Shown: positions 53,144-64,000 of the stretch, piece by piece
Numbering within the stretch: the first letter of the stretch is position 1
Layout of the letters: each line of letters starts with the position of its first letter
Assembly: GCA_018267385.1 (NCBI GenBank)
Contig: JAFDYN010000008.1
Coordinates: 188,622-252,621 of the forward strand
DNA length: 64,000 nt
Reading direction: 5' to 3'
Origin: Bacteroidota bacterium
GTDB taxonomy: Bacteria; Bacteroidota; Bacteroidia; Chitinophagales; LD1
Made by a program: the position numbers and the translations under genes
Notes under the pieces: generated by a model
What the model saw: only the letters and a program-made list of their open reading frames with translations
What the model was told of the DNA's origin: nothing
Database searches by the model: none

Positions 53144-56100
53144 ATGAGCGTCTCTACCCTATTTACGTCCGGCTCTCAGACCAGGTACACGAATCGTGTT
53201 TCTGTGGGAGCGTTTGTTTTGCTACTGTGCATGATTGCCTTCCGGCCGCTGCATGCGCAGGTAGCATACAATTACACTTTTTCGCAAACGAGCGGCACCT
53301 ACACGCCTCTTACAGGTGGCACTTCTTTGTACACAGGTACATTTGACGACAACACATCTGTCGCTCAGACCATACCGTCCTTTACGTTTGACGGTATGAC
53401 CTACACCTCCATGTATGTCAATACCAACGGATGGTTGAACCTCGGTGTTGATCCCGGCACTACTACTAACTATACGCCCCTCTCAAATACTACTTCCGGC
53501 AGGTGTCTCTCGCCATTTGGGCGCGACCTCAATCAGGCTACTACGGGTACCCCCTCTGTGAGCTGGGCCGTAGTCGGCTCTGAGATAGTAGTGCAGTGGC
53601 AGGATGTCAGGCGCTATAGCAGCAGCACCAGCGTCACTGAGAAATTCAGCTTTCAGGCACGCATGGATACTGCTACAGGTATCGTGCGCTTCGTGTATGA
53701 TGCCGTGCATGGTGTGAGCACTGTGACATCATACCCTCAGGTAGGCCTGCGCGGGCTGGACAATACGTTGGCAACGAATGTCAATATCCGCAAGCTGGCA
53801 CTCAGCAACCCATGGACAGCTACAGCTCCGGGCACCTCCAATAGCGACGCAGTAGCATTTGACTCGGCCACGGCTACGCTGCCTGCTGCAGGTCTTACAT
53901 TTGTATATACTCCGCTACCCTGTCTCAACCTGTCTGCACTCACAGCATCCAATGTAACTACCGGCGGAGCTACGATCAACTGGACCGTACCTTCTACTTT
54001 GCCGCTGAGCTATATATATGAAGTGGTAGCAGCCAATGGTACAGCAGACAGCACTCCGATACTGACAGGCACTGCCGCTGGTACGGATAGCAATTTTACG
54101 CTCTCTACCTTGTCCTCTTCTACTACTTATAATGTTTATGTAAAAAAAGTATGTAGCTCTACAGATACCAGCCACTGGTCACCTGTAGCCACATTCACGA
54201 CTCTCTGCATCCCTACTACTACCTATCCGTACCTTCAGTCATTTAGTTCCTCGCTGCCTCCATGCTGGACGGTCTCTCACGGCCCGAGCACGGATCCTAA
54301 CTGGGCGGTGACCACTGCAGATGGTACGCACGGCGTATCAGGCCCTGAGGCGGGGACCAACTTCCTCTATCTCGATGTATACAATGCGCATACCGCAGGC
54401 AACCCTTATAAAGTGACGACTGCTTCATTTATACTGACGGGCGCTGCCAAGCAGGTTTCATACTATTATTTTCTCGGCACATCAGGATCTTCTACACCGC
54501 TTACCGTAAATATTTCTACAGACGGTGGCAATACATGGACAGCGCTCTATAGCCACACCAGTAGTAACTCGACTTTCGGCACCAGCAGCTCCACCTCTTT
54601 CTGGAGGTCCAATACGATAGACCTGACTACCTATATGGGTGATACGGTACAGTTCCAGTTTTCAGCTACATCAAACTGGGGAAGCGGTGTGTGCAATATG
54701 GCTATAGATGAATTTCTGATCAATAACGCTCCTACCTGCTATCCTGTGAGTGGACTCACCACATCTGTAGTAGGCGGCAATAATGCGACTTTCTCATGGA
54801 CAGTGCCTGCACACGGCGCACCAAACGATTATAACTGGCAGATACGCACCAGCGGCATACCAGACTCTACCGCCACAGGCATCGTAGCTACGGGCAATGC
54901 GGCCGGCACTACTGACAGCACTACGGCACTCGCTCCGCTGACTACCTATCAGCTCTGGGTGCAGTCTGACTGCGGTGGCGTACTGGGCAATAGTACATGG
55001 GTAGGTCCTTATACCTTCACTACTACTACGCTGCCATGCAGTGGTACGCCTGCGGCGGGTAGTGCGAGCCTCGTATCTGCGGGTGTCTGCTCTGCTATCG
55101 TGACGCTCACAGGTAGCTCATACGGATATACAGGCCTGACCTATCAGTGGCAGCAGCGCTATCCTGCCGGGTCGGGAGCTTTCACAAATGTGGCCGGTGC
55201 TAATATATCTGACACGATCGCACTGCCTGGCGCAGTCACAGACTTCAGGTGTGTAGTGACCTGTACCGCCAGCGGTGTAGCAGATACTTCAGCATTCGTC
55301 ACTGTCACAGCTTCTCCGGGAGAGGCCGCCGGTTTCTCGCCACTCGCTGTGACGGGATTCAACCAGGACGTAATAGCCAATGGCAATAACAATCACACTG
55401 CCAATCCGCCATCACTCACTACTACTACATGGGTAGATGCGCCAAACGGCTATGACTTCTACGATGCTTCTTATTCATATAATGGTACTACCTACCCTGC
55501 CACATCACTTCCTGTGAATGGCCAGGTAGTGAGTAACTCTATCACCGGCCTGCTCTATCAGCTGCAGAGTGCCACTACGAGCAATGTACTCCAGCTCCGC
55601 GGCGGCACACAGCTCACAGGTACGCTCACTGCTGTGACACCTCAGAGCGGTACAGAGGTATACCTTCTCGGCGTATCAGGCAATGGTGCCTCTACGATCA
55701 CCGCTGTCGTTCACTTCTCTGATGGCACATCACAGACCTTTACTAACCTCACTGTGAAAGACTGGTTTAATGGTACTCCATATTCCCAGGGCGGCTTTGG
55801 CCGTGTAGGCAGCGGTGGCTTTGATGCCGGTGCACCAGGCGGCAATAACCCTAGAATGTATGACATACCATTGCCACTGGCTCCGGCTAATTATGCGAAG
55901 CTGGTACAAAGCATTACTATCACCAATACAGGCAGCTCTGTAGCGGCAAACAACCAGATCGTCAATATCTTTGCAGTGACCATCGCCACGCCCACGCCAG
56001 CATCATTCTGCGGTGGCCTGGCTACATCGGTATCACTCTTTAATGCCGCTAGCAGTGGTGTGACCTATCAGTGGCAGTCATCTACTACATCCGGTGGCCC

Positions 56101-59100
56101 GTATGCTAATGTCACTACCGGCACAGGTGGTACATCTACTACCTATACCAATACATCTACTGGATCCATCTACTATGTGGTAGAGGCCACCTGTACAGGA
56201 TCCGGCCTGACGGCCACCTCAAATGAGGTCAATGTCAATATCAATCCGGCTGTGAATGTGACCGTGACACCTGCTACGGTCAATTTTTGCTCTAACGACA
56301 CCGGCGTAGTGCTCACTGCACATACCAGCGGTGCCAACATCACCTATGCATGGTCGCCTACTGCGGGCCTCGGCTCGACTACCGACTCTGCTGTGCTGGC
56401 GCATCCTACCTCGACTACTACCTACACAGTGACCGCAGTGAATACAGGCGGCTGTACCAGTACTGCCAGCGCTGTAGTGAACTATATACTGGCACCTCCG
56501 GTGACCAGCATCACCTCTACTCCTACCGAACTGTGTGCGGGCTCTACCGCCGTGCTCAATGTAGTAGCAGACACTACCGGCCAGCCGGCGCTGACTTATA
56601 CATGGTCCCCAGCCGGCACCCTGAGCAGGACAGACACATCTACTACTGTGGCGTCTCCACCTGCGGGCAATACAACATACACCGTGACCGTATCTAATGG
56701 CATCTGCTCTACCTCTGCATCTGTCACCGATACGGTGGGTGCCGTACTCGCTATAGCGCCTACCGCCACTACCACGGCTACCGGCACGCATTGCGCACGC
56801 CAGACCACCTTCCATCTCGCAGCTAATAGGACCGGCGGTGGTGGGCCATTCACCTATAGCTGGACATCTTCTTTGGGTGGATTCGCATCGTCATCTGCAG
56901 ATACTACTGTAGTGCCTGATACTACTACCACATACTATATAGATGTGACTGACAACTGTGGCTCTACGCTCCACGACTCAGTGACTGTCACAGTAGTACC
57001 TACACCATATGTCTCTGTGAGCCCTACGGCCATCATCTACTGTGCAGGTAGCACTCCTATCGCGCTCACTGCCAGCGGTGCATCCAGCTTCAGCTGGTCT
57101 CCGTCTGCAGGCCTCAGTGCTACTACCGGTGCATCAGTCAATGCATCTCCTACTGTCACTACTAACTATGTAGTGACCGGTACTACCGGCGGCTGCAGCG
57201 CTACAGCTACAGCTGCAGTGACACTGGCTCAGCCTCCGGCCATCAGCATGGTCACAGCTATGCCATCGGCACCAAGCATCTGCCAGGGCTACCGCTCTCA
57301 GCTGGATGTAGTAGCCTCTACTCCTGTAGGGCCGTATTGCATACCTACTATCAGCAGCACCTTCCTGCACTATCTGGGCAGCTTCTATCTCACCGATACT
57401 ACCAATACGACCACATATGTATCTACTACACGCAATAGCTCTGCGGGTACAGCCAATAACTATGTAGACCACGGTGTAGCCGCTACTACCGGTACGCTGG
57501 CTGCAGATTCGGCTTATAATTTCAATGGTGTCTACAGCGGTATCTACGAAGGTCTGGCGATATGGATCGACTTTAACCAGAACGGCATTTTCGACAACAG
57601 TGAATTGCTCTATGCGCACTATGCAGGCAACTCCACCTCCGGTGTGCCATACAACGGCAGGTTCACGATACCATCTACCGCGCTGAGTGGTGTCACCAAG
57701 ATGCGCGTGCGCCTGGGCTGGGGTAGCGATACTATACCTGATGCCAACGGCCTGTACTCATGTACACCAGGCAATAGCGATGGTTTCTCTACATACGGTA
57801 GTACTGACGACTATACTATCACCATCACCGGCGGTGTGACGCCGAGCGGACTGAGCTATGCATGGTCTCCATCAGGCACGCTGGATAGCGCTACGATACA
57901 CAATCCGGTAGCCACTCCTACTGCCACTACAGGATACACCGTGACTGTGACCGATCCTAACACCGGATGCTCAGCCACCATGACAGATACTGTATATGTC
58001 AATGCACCTACGCCGCTCACGGCTGCTATATCCGGCCCTGCCGGCACAGTATGCGGCGCTATGCCATATACGCTGACCACTATAGCTGCAGGAGGTTGTA
58101 CGCCATATGTATATGCCTGGTCAGATGGTACCGGTACGCTGACAGCCAGCCTGGATAGCATACTGCCTACCGCCACTACTACCTACACAGTGACTGTGAC
58201 TGACAGCTCAGGCAATCAGGCCACTGCCACATTCACACTGAACGTGAGCAACCCGCTCGTCACTGCTACTACCGGCGCGAGCCTCTGCGGCCCTGGCACT
58301 GCGACACTCGTAGCTACGCCATCTGCAGGCGCTACCATCGTATGGTATGACTCCCTGACCAACGGTACACTGGTATACACCGGTGATACATTTACTACTC
58401 AGTCTATTTCGTCAGATGTGACCTATTATGCCTTTGCCACTACCAGCTCCCCTACCTGCTCGTCTGCGGGTACGGCGGTACTAGCAGCAGTGCATAGTAA
58501 TCCTGCACTGACACTCAACTACAGCATCGTGCACGTTTGCGCTACCGGTGAGCAACTAGCTATCACCTCTACGCTCCCTGCTCATGCCAGCTATACCTGG
58601 TCACCTGTAAGCGGTCTATACACTGATACGACTGCAGCCACACCTTATGCAGGCGGTAATGCAGCCTCTGTATATGGTAGGCCGGGAGCTACCACCGCAT
58701 ACACGGTGACACTCTATGATTCTACTACCGGCTGCAGCAGCCAGCAGACAGATTCATTTATCGTCTATCAGCGTCCTACAGCTACTTTGTCAGGCGTTGA
58801 TACCACTGTATGCCCGGGAGCTATACTCAGCGGTACGATCAGCTTCACCGGCACCGGTCCATGGACATTTATCCGCACCACAGATCATGGTGCTCCGGTA
58901 TCAGCTACTGCCACTACCAGCCCGTATGCCTTCTCAGATACTCCTACTGTATCCGGTCCTATCAAGATCACCGTACTGACCGATCAGCACTGTATAGCTA
59001 AGTACAGCGACCTCGATAGCTTCAATGTGACTGTCATGCCTGTCAGCGCTTCATTCACACCGAGCCTGCCTACAGCTCATACAGGAGACGTAGTGACTTT

Positions 59101-59551
59101 CACAGATCACAGCACCGGAGCTACCAGCTATGCCTGGACATTTGGAGATGGAGGTACCTCTACTGCCCAGAGTCCGACGCATACTTATGACTCTATAGGT
59201 ATTTATACGGTATCGCTCACCGTGACCAACTCACTGGGCTGTACCTCTACCACTACCCATCAGGATACGGTCATCTGGCCACTCGCCATATCAGATATCC
59301 CTTCAGACAATAGTCTGCTGAAGATATTCTCATATGAAAACAAGGTAATGGTGGACTTCAGCCAGTACAAGACCGTACAGGCCACTATCAGGATATACAA
59401 CCTGATAGGCCAGGAACTGTCAAACGAAACTCACAACGCGCCTACTACCTACGTGAAGGCTGTACCTGGTGCAGAAATAGCGTATGTAATAGTATCTGTG
59501 AAAATGAGTGACGGATCCATCAGTACCAGGAAGGTCCTCATCACCAATTAA
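53144..59551 (+). CDS. 2135-residue modular surface protein, T9SS cargo
   Basis: Signal peptide (about 1-39, ending PLHAQ). Modules in order: N-terminal beta domain (40-250), fibronectin III (258-350), MAM-like/cleaved-adhesin lectin-like domain (355-527), fibronectin III (531-630), beta region (635-950), then Ig-like repeats with a recurring Y-x-W-S-P motif at about 1067, 1150, 1316, 1570 and 1816, a GEVED domain (about 1397-1562, IWIDFNQNGIFD), PKD (about 1968-2045, YAWTFGDGG) and an unusual C-terminal sorting domain (from about 2055, IRIYNLIGQELS ... RKVLI) without the common YPNP start. Rich in Thr/Ser with few Lys. Likely an exported adhesin. No catalytic motif seen. Confidence 0.9.
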   Translation: MSVSTLFTSGSQTRYTNRVSVGAFVLLLCMIAFRPLHAQVAYNYTFSQTSGTYTPLTGGTSLYTGTFDDNTSVAQTIPSFTFDGMTYTSMYVNTNGWLNLGVDPGTTTNYTPLSNTTSGRCLSPFGRDLNQATTGTPSVSWAVVGSEIVVQWQDVRRYSSSTSVTEKFSFQARMDTATGIVRFVYDAVHGVSTVTSYPQVGLRGLDNTLATNVNIRKLALSNPWTATAPGTSNSDAVAFDSATATLPAAGLTFVYTPLPCLNLSALTASNVTTGGATINWTVPSTLPLSYIYEVVAANGTADSTPILTGTAAGTDSNFTLSTLSSSTTYNVYVKKVCSSTDTSHWSPVATFTTLCIPTTTYPYLQSFSSSLPPCWTVSHGPSTDPNWAVTTADGTHGVSGPEAGTNFLYLDVYNAHTAGNPYKVTTASFILTGAAKQVSYYYFLGTSGSSTPLTVNISTDGGNTWTALYSHTSSNSTFGTSSSTSFWRSNTIDLTTYMGDTVQFQFSATSNWGSGVCNMAIDEFLINNAPTCYPVSGLTTSVVGGNNATFSWTVPAHGAPNDYNWQIRTSGIPDSTATGIVATGNAAGTTDSTTALAPLTTYQLWVQSDCGGVLGNSTWVGPYTFTTTTLPCSGTPAAGSASLVSAGVCSAIVTLTGSSYGYTGLTYQWQQRYPAGSGAFTNVAGANISDTIALPGAVTDFRCVVTCTASGVADTSAFVTVTASPGEAAGFSPLAVTGFNQDVIANGNNNHTANPPSLTTTTWVDAPNGYDFYDASYSYNGTTYPATSLPVNGQVVSNSITGLLYQLQSATTSNVLQLRGGTQLTGTLTAVTPQSGTEVYLLGVSGNGASTITAVVHFSDGTSQTFTNLTVKDWFNGTPYSQGGFGRVGSGGFDAGAPGGNNPRMYDIPLPLAPANYAKLVQSITITNTGSSVAANNQIVNIFAVTIATPTPASFCGGLATSVSLFNAASSGVTYQWQSSTTSGGPYANVTTGTGGTSTTYTNTSTGSIYYVVEATCTGSGLTATSNEVNVNINPAVNVTVTPATVNFCSNDTGVVLTAHTSGANITYAWSPTAGLGSTTDSAVLAHPTSTTTYTVTAVNTGGCTSTASAVVNYILAPPVTSITSTPTELCAGSTAVLNVVADTTGQPALTYTWSPAGTLSRTDTSTTVASPPAGNTTYTVTVSNGICSTSASVTDTVGAVLAIAPTATTTATGTHCARQTTFHLAANRTGGGGPFTYSWTSSLGGFASSSADTTVVPDTTTTYYIDVTDNCGSTLHDSVTVTVVPTPYVSVSPTAIIYCAGSTPIALTASGASSFSWSPSAGLSATTGASVNASPTVTTNYVVTGTTGGCSATATAAVTLAQPPAISMVTAMPSAPSICQGYRSQLDVVASTPVGPYCIPTISSTFLHYLGSFYLTDTTNTTTYVSTTRNSSAGTANNYVDHGVAATTGTLAADSAYNFNGVYSGIYEGLAIWIDFNQNGIFDNSELLYAHYAGNSTSGVPYNGRFTIPSTALSGVTKMRVRLGWGSDTIPDANGLYSCTPGNSDGFSTYGSTDDYTITITGGVTPSGLSYAWSPSGTLDSATIHNPVATPTATTGYTVTVTDPNTGCSATMTDTVYVNAPTPLTAAISGPAGTVCGAMPYTLTTIAAGGCTPYVYAWSDGTGTLTASLDSILPTATTTYTVTVTDSSGNQATATFTLNVSNPLVTATTGASLCGPGTATLVATPSAGATIVWYDSLTNGTLVYTGDTFTTQSISSDVTYYAFATTSSPTCSSAGTAVLAAVHSNPALTLNYSIVHVCATGEQLAITSTLPAHASYTWSPVSGLYTDTTAATPYAGGNAASVYGRPGATTAYTVTLYDSTTGCSSQQTDSFIVYQRPTATLSGVDTTVCPGAILSGTISFTGTGPWTFIRTTDHGAPVSATATTSPYAFSDTPTVSGPIKITVLTDQHCIAKYSDLDSFNVTVMPVSASFTPSLPTAHTGDVVTFTDHSTGATSYAWTFGDGGTSTAQSPTHTYDSIGIYTVSLTVTNSLGCTSTTTHQDTVIWPLAISDIPSDNSLLKIFSYENKVMVDFSQYKTVQATIRIYNLIGQELSNETHNAPTTYVKAVPGAEIAYVIVSVKMSDGSISTRKVLITN

Positions 59552-59573: not shown

Positions 59574-59608
59574 AAGGGCTCGTCAGCAGACGGGCCCTTT
59601 TTTATTTT
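59574..59608 (+). terminator. Terminator of the giant surface-protein gene
   Basis: AAGGGCTCGTC (59574-59584) pairs with GACGGGCCCTT (59589-59599), one mismatch, 4-nt loop, then a T-rich tail. It isolates the his operon from the surface-protein gene. Confidence 0.9.
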
Positions 59609-59775
59609 TGTAGACAAGCATGTCTTTCGCTACCTGATGATACTACAGCTCTTTCCCGGTCAATACAACTAAGAGCAAAACCTTCACAAGAGATACAATT
59701 AACTTAAAATCAATACATAACGTTAAATAGATAAAAATATTTATTTGTATTTCAGGGAATATCTCTATTTATACT

Positions 59776-59783
59776 TAGCTTTA
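59776..59783 (+). promoter_or_regulatory. Candidate -7 box of the his operon
   Basis: TAGCTTTA matches the Bacteroidota TAnnTTTG element at seven of eight positions when n are free. It would place the transcript start at about 59790, a dozen bases before the leader-peptide AUG. No well-spaced -33 TTG was found, so this is tentative. Confidence 0.4.
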
Positions 59784-59801
59784 AAAACTAATCAAACAGC
59801 A

Positions 59802-59852
59802 ATGGCTATCTCTATATTTTTCGCTCATCATCATCATACCTACCGACCCTGA
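59802..59852 (+). CDS. hisL: Histidine operon leader peptide
   Basis: A 16-codon frame, MAISIFFAHHHHTYRP, with four consecutive His codons (59826-59837, all CAT) just before its stop. It lies between a candidate promoter and a terminator hairpin in front of hisG. Its purpose is regulatory: ribosomes stall at the His codons when charged tRNA-His is scarce. The name is used by function; the peptide is not expected to resemble the enteric HisL in detail. Confidence 0.9.
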   Translation: MAISIFFAHHHHTYRP

Positions 59853-59923
59853 CAGGCGTGGGAGAGCGAAGGTATATCGATACCTTAATCTATAACCAGA
59901 CCCGCCTGACCGGCGGGTTTTTT
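59853..59923 (+). promoter_or_regulatory. Histidine attenuator: antiterminator and terminator
   Basis: Terminator: CCCGCC (59901-59906) with GGCGGG (59912-59917), then six T (59918-59923), 11 nt before hisG. Antiterminator: CAGGCG-T-GG (59853-59861) pairs with CCCGCCTG (59901-59908) with one bulged base, taking over the terminator's 5' arm. A 7-bp hairpin AAGGTAT/ATACCTT (59869-59875 with 59880-59886) sits between. TTCGCTC inside the leader (59820-59826) can pair with 59864-59870. A ribosome at the leader stop would cover 59853-59861 and let the terminator form; one stalled on His codons would leave it free. Confidence 0.85.
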
Positions 59924-59934
59924 AATTTATATAA

Positions 59935-60795
59935 ATGGACAAAAGGATAAGAATAGCCGTACAGAAATCCGGCAGGCTGAATGAGGACTCGCTGAAGCTC
60001 CTCAAAGAATGTGGTATAGCCATAGATACAGGTGCCGACAGGCTGAAAGTCTCATCGCCCAATTTTCCGATGGATGTTTTCTTCCTGCGCAATAGCGATA
60101 TACCGCAATATATAGAGGATGGCGTAGCAGATATCGCCATCATAGGAGAGAATATCCTGATAGAAAAACCCCATCAGGTTGACACACTCATGCAGTTGGG
60201 TTTTAGCCGGTGCAGGGTCAGCCTGGCCATACCCAAGAGTGATGTATATCCCGGCCCATCGTTCTTTAGCGGGCGCAAGCTGGCTACTTCATATCCCAAT
60301 ACCTTGCGACGGTTTCTCACCGAGCGGGGCATCACCGCTGAGATACACGAGATATCAGGCTCAGTAGAGATAGCGCCCAATATAGGCCTGGCAGATGGTA
60401 TCTGTGACATAGTCAGTTCCGGTTCTACCCTTTTCAAGAATGGATTGAAAGAAGTAGAAGTATTGCACCGCTCAGAGGCCATACTCATCTCCGGTCAAAA
60501 CCTGGATACCGCCGCACAGGCGCTGGTGCACAAGCTCACCTTTCGCATCAATGCCGTACTCGCAGCGCGCAATAATAAATACATACTACTGAATGCACCT
60601 AATGAGAAGCTAGATGAGATCATCAGTCTGCTGCCGGGCATGAAGAGCCCGACCATCCTCCCACTTGCCAAGCCCGATTGGAGCTCCCTCCACTCCGTGA
60701 TCAGTGAGAGCGAGTTTTGGGAGAAGATAGACGCACTGACCGCAGCCGGCGCACAGGGTATCCTGATCGTACCGATAGAGAAAATGGTATTATAA
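59935..60795 (+). CDS. hisG: ATP phosphoribosyltransferase (long form)
   Basis: 286 residues, the long HisG form with a C-terminal ACT-like regulatory domain (from about 210), so feedback inhibition by histidine without HisZ is expected. It joins ATP and PRPP, the first step of histidine synthesis. Recognised by IAVQKSGRLNEDSLKLLKECG, the VADIAIIGEN loop and the PRPP-binding DGICDIVSSGSTLFKNGLKEVE segment. First structural gene after the attenuator; the ATG is 11 nt after the terminator U-tract. Confidence 0.97.
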   Translation: MDKRIRIAVQKSGRLNEDSLKLLKECGIAIDTGADRLKVSSPNFPMDVFFLRNSDIPQYIEDGVADIAIIGENILIEKPHQVDTLMQLGFSRCRVSLAIPKSDVYPGPSFFSGRKLATSYPNTLRRFLTERGITAEIHEISGSVEIAPNIGLADGICDIVSSGSTLFKNGLKEVEVLHRSEAILISGQNLDTAAQALVHKLTFRINAVLAARNNKYILLNAPNEKLDEIISLLPGMKSPTILPLAKPDWSSLHSVISESEFWEKIDALTAAGAQGILIVPIEKMVL

Positions 60796-60809: not shown

Positions 60810-62102
60810 ATGCAGATAATAAAATATCCCGACAGCCAGTCGCTCCCTGCCCTGCTCCGCCGGCCTGCGCCCCCTGATATGAGCGCCGTGACAGCCTCCG
60901 TGCTAGACATCCTGAGCGACATCCGTGAGCATGGAGATAAGGCAGTGGAAAAGTATACGGAGCGGTTTGATAAAATAAAGATCAGCGACCCGAAAGTATC
61001 TGCGAGGGAACTGAGTGCAGCCGGTAAAAAACTTGATAACAAACTAAAGCAAGCCATAGAGGTAGCGTATCAGAATATCTATAAGTTTCACAAGGAGCAG
61101 GTCCTGACTCCTCGGAAAATATCTACCATGCCCGGTGTGGCCTGCTGGCGGGAAAACCGGCCTATACAGCGGGTAGGTATATACATACCGGGGGGCAGTG
61201 CGCCACTTTTCTCTACCGTACTGATGCTGGGCATACCGGCGCAGATAGCAGGCTGCGCCGAGGTGGTCATGTGCACACCACCCGCGGCAGATGGGAGCAT
61301 ACATCCCGTTATAGGCTATGCTGCCAGAATGTGCGGTATCCAGACGATCTACAAAACAGGAGGCGTACAGGCCATAGGTGCCATGGCATACGGCACGGCG
61401 CAGATACCTGCTGTAGACAAGATCTTCGGCCCGGGCAATAGCTACGTGACCCTGGCTAAACAACTCGTGAGCCAGCAAGGCATCGCGATAGATATGCCGG
61501 CTGGCCCGTCTGAGGTGCTGGTCGTAGCAGATGAGAGCTGCACACCGGCCTTCGTAGCTGCCGACCTTCTCTCTCAGGCAGAGCATGGACCAGACTCGCA
61601 GGTAGTACTCGTCTCTACGCGGTCATACGTAGTAGAAGCGGTGATCAAAGAGCTACACCTGCAGCTAGAGCAGCTACCGCGAAAAGAGATAGCGGCACAA
61701 GCACTCCGGCACTCCAAAGCAATACTGGTAAGGCAACCGAAACAAGCCGTACAGATCATCAATGACTATGCGCCTGAGCACTTGATACTCGCGGTGACGG
61801 ACACCCAATACTATACAGACCGGGTGTACAATGCAGGCTCCGTCTTCATAGGCCACTATACCCCGGAGAGCGCCGGAGACTACGCCAGTGGGACTAATCA
61901 CACCTTGCCTACTGCAGGTTTTGCGCGCACTTATTCCGGAGTATCGGTAGATTCTTTTGTCAAGAAGATCACCTATCAGGAGATATCACGTGCAGGGCTG
62001 CAGCGCCTCGGGCCGACTATAGAGACGATGGCTGAGGCAGAGGGCCTGCACGCACATCGCCGGGCAGTTTCCATTCGCTTACAAAATTCAAAATCGAAAT
62101 AA
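60810..62102 (+). CDS. hisD: Histidinol dehydrogenase
   Basis: 430 residues from the ATG at 60810 (MQIIKYPDSQSL), 14 nt after hisG; the frame is open further up, overlapping hisG, but that part is not HisD-like. It performs the last two oxidations, L-histidinol to L-histidine, with NAD and zinc. Diagnostic parts are GIYIPGGSAPLFSTVLMLGIPAQIAG (about residues 113-138), KIFGPGNSYVTLAKQ, the zinc-binding QAEHGPDSQ and the Gly/His-rich NHTLPT segment. Its stop overlaps the hisC start (TAATG). Confidence 0.97.
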   Translation: MQIIKYPDSQSLPALLRRPAPPDMSAVTASVLDILSDIREHGDKAVEKYTERFDKIKISDPKVSARELSAAGKKLDNKLKQAIEVAYQNIYKFHKEQVLTPRKISTMPGVACWRENRPIQRVGIYIPGGSAPLFSTVLMLGIPAQIAGCAEVVMCTPPAADGSIHPVIGYAARMCGIQTIYKTGGVQAIGAMAYGTAQIPAVDKIFGPGNSYVTLAKQLVSQQGIAIDMPAGPSEVLVVADESCTPAFVAADLLSQAEHGPDSQVVLVSTRSYVVEAVIKELHLQLEQLPRKEIAAQALRHSKAILVRQPKQAVQIINDYAPEHLILAVTDTQYYTDRVYNAGSVFIGHYTPESAGDYASGTNHTLPTAGFARTYSGVSVDSFVKKITYQEISRAGLQRLGPTIETMAEAEGLHAHRRAVSIRLQNSKSK

Positions 62103-63151
62103 TGTTTGATCTCTATCAGATAGTACGTCCCAATATCCTGGCATTAAAACCCTACTCATCCGCACGCGATGAATTTAGTGGCCATGCGTCAGTCTACCTC
62201 GATGCTAATGAAAATGCCTACGGCTCTCCGCTGTCGCAAAATTACAATCGCTATCCGGATCCTCACCAGCACACGCTGAAACAAAAGATCAGCTCGATCA
62301 AGGGCATTCCGGTAGAAAATATCTTTCTCGGCAATGGAAGTGATGAGGCTATTGATATTCTCTACCGCATCTTTTGCCGGCCGGGAGCAGACAATGTGAT
62401 CATCTGCCCGCCGACCTACGGCATGTATGAAGTGAGCGCCGGTATCAATGATGCTGCAGTACGCAGGGTGCCCCTCTTGCCATCCTTTGAGCTGGATATA
62501 CATGAGATACTGCGCGCTACTGATGCTCAGAGTCGCATACTCTTCATCTGCTCGCCCAATAACCCAAGCGGCAACTCCCTGCACAAAGAAGACATAGAAT
62601 ACCTCGTCAGCCGGTTTCCGGGTGTGGTAGTGATAGATGAAGCATACATCAACTACTCGCGGCAGTCAAGTTGTATCAGTTTGCTGACCGAGTATCCTAA
62701 TGTAGTGGTCCTGCAGACCTTCTCCAAGGCATGGGGCCTCGCTGGCCTGCGCCTCGGCATGGCCTTTGCCTCCACCGCTATCATAGACCTGATGGACAAA
62801 GTAAAGCCCCCTTACAATGTCAGTGAAAATACCCAGCAACTCGTATCTCAGGCCCTCACCCACATAGACCAGGTCAATGAGCAGATCCGCAGCACTGTGC
62901 GGGAGCGCAACGCATTAATTCATACGCTGTCATCATTGCCGATTATACAAAAAGTATATCCGTCAGACGCCAACTTCCTACTGGTCAAAGTAACTGATGC
63001 CCATGCTGTATATACATATCTCGCCGGTCATGGCACTATAGTGCGCGACCGTAGTAAAGCAGAACACTGTGAAAACTGCCTCCGTATCACGATAGGCACA
63101 CCGGAAGAAAACCAAACACTCATAGCTCAACTCAAAGCATACTCCACATGA
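62102..63151 (+). CDS. hisC: Histidinol-phosphate aminotransferase
   Basis: 349 residues, class I/II PLP enzyme. It moves an amino group to imidazole-acetol phosphate. Recognised by [12 protein letters not shown] at the start, [34 protein letters not shown] and the PLP-binding Lys in [14 protein letters not shown]. Start overlaps the hisD stop and its own stop overlaps the hisB start (ATGA), so translation is coupled throughout. Confidence 0.97.
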
Positions 63152-64000
63152 AAAAAAATATCCTGATAGATCTAGATACGATCATCCGGGCTGACGGGTC
63201 TTTTCACGATCATGCCATCTCCGGCATCCTGCGCATAGCCCGGGATCTCGGCTATTCGCTCAGGCTTAGCTCTTCTGATAAAGATGAAACCGGCTTCTCT
63301 TTACTCAAAAATATACTCGCATCAGAAGGCGTAGAGCTAAGATCGGCTGACCTTAAAACAGATATCCTTATATCAGCGCAGCCGGCAGACAATGTCGAGA
63401 TCATAATTTTTGATCCGGCACAAAAGGATTGGCGTCAGATAGTAGAAACGCTGAGCAGCCGATCTCGCAGCATCACGCATCAGCGCAATACGAAGGAGAC
63501 AAGGGTCGCCATCACCCTCCATCCGGATGGCACAGGTCAGAGCAGCATCTCTACCGGCTTGCACTTCTTCGATCATATGCTGGATCAGATAGCGCGCCAC
63601 GGCGGCATAGACCTGACCATACAGGTACAGGGAGACCTCCACGTAGATGAGCACCACACCATAGAGGATACAGGTATCGCACTGGGTGAGGCCTTCGCCT
63701 TGGCATTAGGGGACAAACGTGGTATAGAGCGATATGGGTTCTGCCTGCCTATGGACGATGCACTGGCGCAGGTAGCCGTGGACTTTGGCGGCCGCAGCTG
63801 GATCGTTTGGGAGGCTGTATTCAAAAGGGAGAAAGTAGGTGATATGCCTACTGAGATGTTCTTTCATTTCTTCAAATCCTTTAGCGATGGTGCCCGCTGC
63901 AATCTGAATATCTCTGCCACAGGAGACAATGAACACCACAAGATCGAAGCTATTTTCAAGGCTTTTGCGAAAGCGATAAAGATGGCCGTACGCCGCGACC
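63148..64000 (+). CDS. hisB: Imidazoleglycerol-phosphate dehydratase with degenerate N-terminal HAD-like domain (partial)
   Basis: The window ends inside the gene after 284 codons. From about residue 117 the dehydratase domain is normal: [41 protein letters not shown] and [15 protein letters not shown] supply the manganese His ligands. It is preceded by about 115 residues that align to the HAD histidinol-phosphatase half of bifunctional HisB: IDLDTIIR replaces the usual IDRDGTLI, and [10 protein letters not shown] sits where the VTNQDGLGT motif should be. The half is some 50 residues shorter than in E. coli (about 165) and lacks the zinc-binding Cys cluster, so phosphatase activity is doubtful. 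The phosphatase may be encoded elsewhere. Confidence 0.9.

Follow-up and report, generated by a model that had tools for sequence, protein, structure and literature searches.

A very probable ribosome-mediated attenuator upstream of hisG in a Bacteroidota bacterium, with counterparts across the phylum

The window, a 64,000-nucleotide stretch of contig JAFDYN010000008.1 (assembly GCA_018267385.1, an uncultured Bacteroidota bacterium), ends within a his operon (Table 1). Family matches identify hisG, hisD, hisC, and hisB. The genes hisH, hisA, hisF, and hisIE, named from sequence and not by family search, follow past the window on the same contig, so the element described here precedes a complete his operon. 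In the hisB product, about 100 residues (window 63148-63500) precede the IGPD domain and match no Pfam domain; from its sequence, this part resembles the histidinol-phosphatase half of a bifunctional HisB, shortened and degenerate (PRK05446, below cut-off). Directly 5' of the operon (53144-59551) is the gene for a giant 2135-residue protein with Ig-like, GEVED, PKD, and fn3 domains, which is probably secreted.

An earlier note on this DNA, made from the letters alone, described three elements in front of hisGDCB: a 16-codon leader with four tandem His codons; an intrinsic terminator; and an antiterminator that excludes it. All are present as described, as are the four genes behind them. The terminator ends 12 nt 5' of hisG. 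Its fold, at -15.6 kcal/mol, is stabler than that of all 200 dinucleotide shuffles (z -4.1). The antiterminator helix contains one bulged T and is mutually exclusive with the terminator; the 62-nt stretch that it spans folds at -19.2 kcal/mol (z -2.7). A small hairpin folds within it, bringing the two antiterminator arms closer. The same note proposed a further leader pairing. This does appear in the ribosome-free minimum-energy fold, but it is weak (z -1.4 for the stretch, not stabler than shuffles) and inconsistently conserved.

Table 1. Features at the his locus (window coordinates)
Feature	Position	Strand	Details
Terminator-like hairpin of upstream gene	59574..59599	+	marks off the leader as a separate transcription unit
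Possible Bacteroidota-type promoter	59744..59778	+	TTTG 59744-59747; imperfect TAnnTTTG (TATACTTAG) 59770-59778
Leader peptide ORF MAISIFFAHHHHTYRP	59802..59852	+	16 codons; ATG 59802, TGA 59850-59852 (stop included)
Possible protector pairing, weak	59820..59870	+	59820-59826 with 59864-59870; formed only on a ribosome-free leader
Control codons, four tandem His (CAT)	59826..59837	+	sequence
Antiterminator 5' arm (CAGGCGTGG)	59853..59861	+	directly 3' of the leader stop codon
Small hairpin AAGGTAT-ATCG-ATACCTT	59869..59886	+	inside the antiterminator loop; -6.4 kcal/mol, z -2.8
Intrinsic terminator	59898..59923	+	9-bp stem AGACCCGCC/GGCGGGTTT 59898-59920; six T 59918-59923
Shared arm (CCCGCCTG)	59901..59908	+	antiterminator 3' arm; 59901-59906 also terminator 5' arm
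hisG, ATP phosphoribosyltransferase	59935..60795	+	TIGR00070, TIGR03455
hisD	60810..62102	+	TIGR00069
hisC	62102..63151	+	TIGR01141
hisB	63148..63999	+	NF002111, PF00475; runs out of the window

Regions upstream of hisG were collected through a GTDB protein search, from the window's own family, and from a phylum-wide draw of 395 genomes, which contributed 120 further loci. The resulting set holds 170 distinct Bacteroidota loci whose HisG is at least 38% identical to that of the window. A His-rich leader, defined as a reading frame that starts with ATG, is 8-40 codons long, and has its His codons clustered, lies 5' of hisG in 147 of them. The same count averages about 1.9 in shuffled upstream sequence and reaches 3 in antisense, which rules out a chance reading frame. 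Just 1 of 29 loci with divergent HisG has such a leader. The earlier note had named loss of the His codons among relatives as a finding that would speak against an attenuator; the run is instead widely kept.

A narrower set comprises the 123 loci that have both a leader and a clear terminator. Their His clusters, mostly of 3-6 codons, take 70 distinct nucleotide forms, and CAT (452) and CAC (94) are both used. This synonymous variation indicates selection on the amino acid, not on the nucleotides. One relative (L005), whose HisG is 76% identical to that of the window, has no trace of an attenuator in the 240 nt upstream of hisG, and would offer a natural comparison for regulation where the attenuator is absent. 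Elsewhere in the window's genome, the search for a second His-run leader gave one pattern match, no better than a control pattern.

Control of the terminator might lie with another sensor of histidine or tRNA-His (a T-box, repressor, or riboswitch), the reading frame being incidental; in Firmicutes, his genes are found under T-boxes and the repressor HisR (PMC9413887). In the window, however, no Rfam 15 family reaches its gathering threshold, there is no T-box among the weak matches, and no part of the leader is as well conserved as its His run. This is the least probable of the readings considered. At relaxed thresholds, Trp_leader (23 bits) and Leu_leader (19 bits) were rejected as candidates: both fall below threshold and rest on the terminator. 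The RF00514 His_leader model gives no match even with the E cut-off relaxed to 10, and the window element is not filed there. Bacteroid-trp (RF01692) has no match anywhere in the genome. A quick look upstream of two chorismate-binding genes and the homoserine dehydrogenase genes of the same genome, some with unsettled gene starts, made no leader peptide evident; ilvD is absent from this genome.

An attenuator requires not only control codons but also competing helices, and these were compared in the 123-locus set. The search let the competitor (arm 2) fall at any position from the His codons as far as the terminator. Leaders pair with their own terminator arm at a mean of -13.7 kcal/mol, against -9.3 kcal/mol with the arms of other loci and -7.3 after leader shuffling. 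Own-arm pairing is better than the shuffled mean at 122 of 123 loci (mean z -3.1; 95 loci below -2). Percentages of paired positions are partly set by construction, arm 2 having been located by complementarity; the shuffle and swap controls are a fair test because they have the same freedom of placement as the real search. Arm sequences are clade-specific (GTTTGA, CTTACC, ATCTGA, and CCGGC are examples), each with its own matching competitor, for a total of 48 distinct arm triples. Arm 2 starts a median of 26 nt past the first clustered His codon, mostly 19-36. Conservation of the two alternative helices, which the earlier note had left to be checked, is thereby borne out across clades. In two Ancylomarina loci (L062 and L068), each hisG is preceded by two complete His attenuators in tandem, each with leader, antiterminator arm, and terminator, about 380-110 nt 5' of the gene.

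The antiterminator is weak in several of the closest relatives (z -1.5 in L002, -1.3 in L003, -0.6 in L004, and +0.2 in L011). This would suit a constitutive terminator that merely lowers his expression, with a His reading frame left by chance or as a decaying relic and no regulation at all. Conservation of both the reading frame and the competing arm far above chance, clade-matched arms, and fixed spacing argue against that reading, as do the window's own parts, which are intact and switch in silico. It is very unlikely.

Folding was also examined on RNA transcribed as far as the shared arm, with part of the leader masked by a ribosome that covers it from 18 nt before the A-site codon to 13 nt past it, an extent based on E. 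coli footprints. Across the 123 loci, the antiterminator has a mean probability of 0.81 when the A site holds the first His codon, and of 0.006 when the ribosome is at the stop codon; the difference is seen at 122 loci of the 123. In the window it is 0.78-0.81 over the four His codons and the following Thr, 0.44 at the Tyr codon that comes next, and then 0. The spacing that separates a stalled from a terminating ribosome in his attenuators is thus found in silico, with an E. coli footprint assumed. With no ribosome, arm 2 of the window is sequestered by the leader (antiterminator probability 0.002), whereas relatives vary (mean 0.36); the third pairing is therefore not a general feature. For full-length RNA at equilibrium, the terminator wins at every ribosome position. 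Equilibrium folding is thereby ruled out as the basis of the switch, which, like that of known attenuators, has to work kinetically.

Initiation on the leader follows the pattern that the earlier note had proposed, dispensing with Shine-Dalgarno pairing: a 4-nt Shine-Dalgarno core precedes merely 4 of the 123 leader starts. The region before the starts is rich in A, the preferred base at -3, -4, and -6. Exact matches to TAnnTTTG, a promoter element of Bacteroidota, lie 5' of the leader ATG in 73 of the 123 relatives (10.75 expected), mostly at -15 to -36; the match in the window is imperfect.

The element in the window very probably controls the his operon by ribosome-mediated transcription attenuation. 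A ribosome would start the leader without a Shine-Dalgarno site and trail RNA polymerase, so that coupling of the two is presumed for this phylum. When charged tRNA-His is scarce, the ribosome would stall on codons 9-12 and leave the antiterminator 5' arm free to pair with the shared arm once this is transcribed. The antiterminator would then preclude the terminator, and transcription would run on through hisG and the remaining genes of the operon. When histidine is plentiful, a ribosome at the stop codon would cover the 5' arm, the terminator would form, and transcription in vivo would end short of hisG.

Not every relative fits this scheme. Sphingobacteriaceae-like loci (the family is a guess; L145, L147, L149, L151, L152, L154, L159, and L219-L248) keep a His-rich leader before hisG, with no intrinsic terminator recognised. 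Their last His codons lie within a hairpin (for example CACCAC/GTGGTG), whose variants ATCGCC/GGCGAT, ATCACCAC/GTGGTGAT, and CATCACC/GGTGATG appear compensatory by eye; a motif close to TATGTTTCTACG-GAA recurs downstream in many of these loci. Balneolaceae-like loci (again a guessed taxon; L100, L108, L111, L115, L118, L119, L124, L184, and L249-L270) have long His-rich leaders, likewise with no terminator recognised, and often a hairpin built from His codons (GATGTCC...GGACATC). Four further loci (L097, L099, L128, and L129) have His leaders ending in ...HHFHHSS, no clear terminator, and at the stop codon a TCCTC/GAGGA palindrome that includes an AGGAGG-like sequence.

The Sphingobacteriaceae-like and Balneolaceae-like leaders suggest that a mode without a terminator may exist in the phylum. 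In such a reading, the leader peptide would act on translation, by reinitiation or by unmasking the start of hisG, and not on termination. For the window, this is even less likely than a constitutive terminator: its terminator is strong and followed by a T run, and the terminator 5' arm is the exact partner of the antiterminator. Attenuation by termination remains the preferred reading there. For the phylum as a whole, a tentative and rather doubtful conjecture is that the his leader is an ancestral, phylum-wide ribosome-sensing element, with initiation independent of Shine-Dalgarno pairing, that has since split into two or more modes: one with terminator and antiterminator, of which the window is an example; and one without a terminator, as in the Sphingobacteriaceae-like and Balneolaceae-like loci, where the last His codons lie in a conserved hairpin and the leader might act via Rho, RNA polymerase pausing, or hisG translation.

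Amino-acid attenuation needs a ribosome closely behind RNA polymerase. The comparative evidence points to this classical mechanism as the usual way of controlling his operons in a large phylum where Shine-Dalgarno initiation is hardly used, and the leader offers a ready reporter for transcription-translation coupling in Bacteroidota. Rfam holds no covariance model for the Bacteroidota his leader; one could be built from the present loci.

Attenuators of his operons are established in enteric bacteria, and the E. coli his leader contains seven His codons. A comparative genomic survey of his attenuators by Vitreschak et al. in 2004 reportedly mentions, in its abstract, candidate attenuators in Bacteroidetes/Chlorobi. 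The enteric element (RF00514 His_leader) likewise combines a tandem-His leader peptide with alternative antiterminator and terminator hairpins at the his operon. The window differs in its simpler three-arm layout, its possible Bacteroidota promoter signal, its start without a Shine-Dalgarno sequence, and its four His codons. Comparative genomics has also predicted his attenuators in another phylum, the Firmicutes (PMC9413887); their leader peptides carry 3-5 His codons, and they too have alternative hairpins. The Bacteroid-trp RNA (RF01692; PMC2864571) is also a cis-regulatory RNA of Bacteroidetes but belongs, by its name, to trp genes: a different operon and a different sequence.

The nearest report within the phylum is a 2021 transcriptome of Flavobacterium psychrophilum (PMC9723704). 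There, hisG is preceded by a structured 5' element that is conserved among Flavobacteriaceae and has no hit in Rfam; the paper also gives strong clues that leader peptides mediate attenuation in front of amino-acid operons. Its main text describes no mechanism for the hisG element. The position of that element 5' of hisG, its phylum, and its lack of an Rfam hit are as in the window, where a check of Rfam, suggested by the earlier note, likewise found no model at threshold. That note's remark that it knew of no experimentally described case in this group of Bacteroidota was consequently too strong. Flavobacteriaceae loci analysed here have the same layout of leader, antiterminator, and terminator as the window, with arms of the GTTTGA or GTCTGA type in place of CGCCTG. 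The kind of attenuator is already known; what the present comparison adds is its breadth across the phylum and the matched change of its arms.
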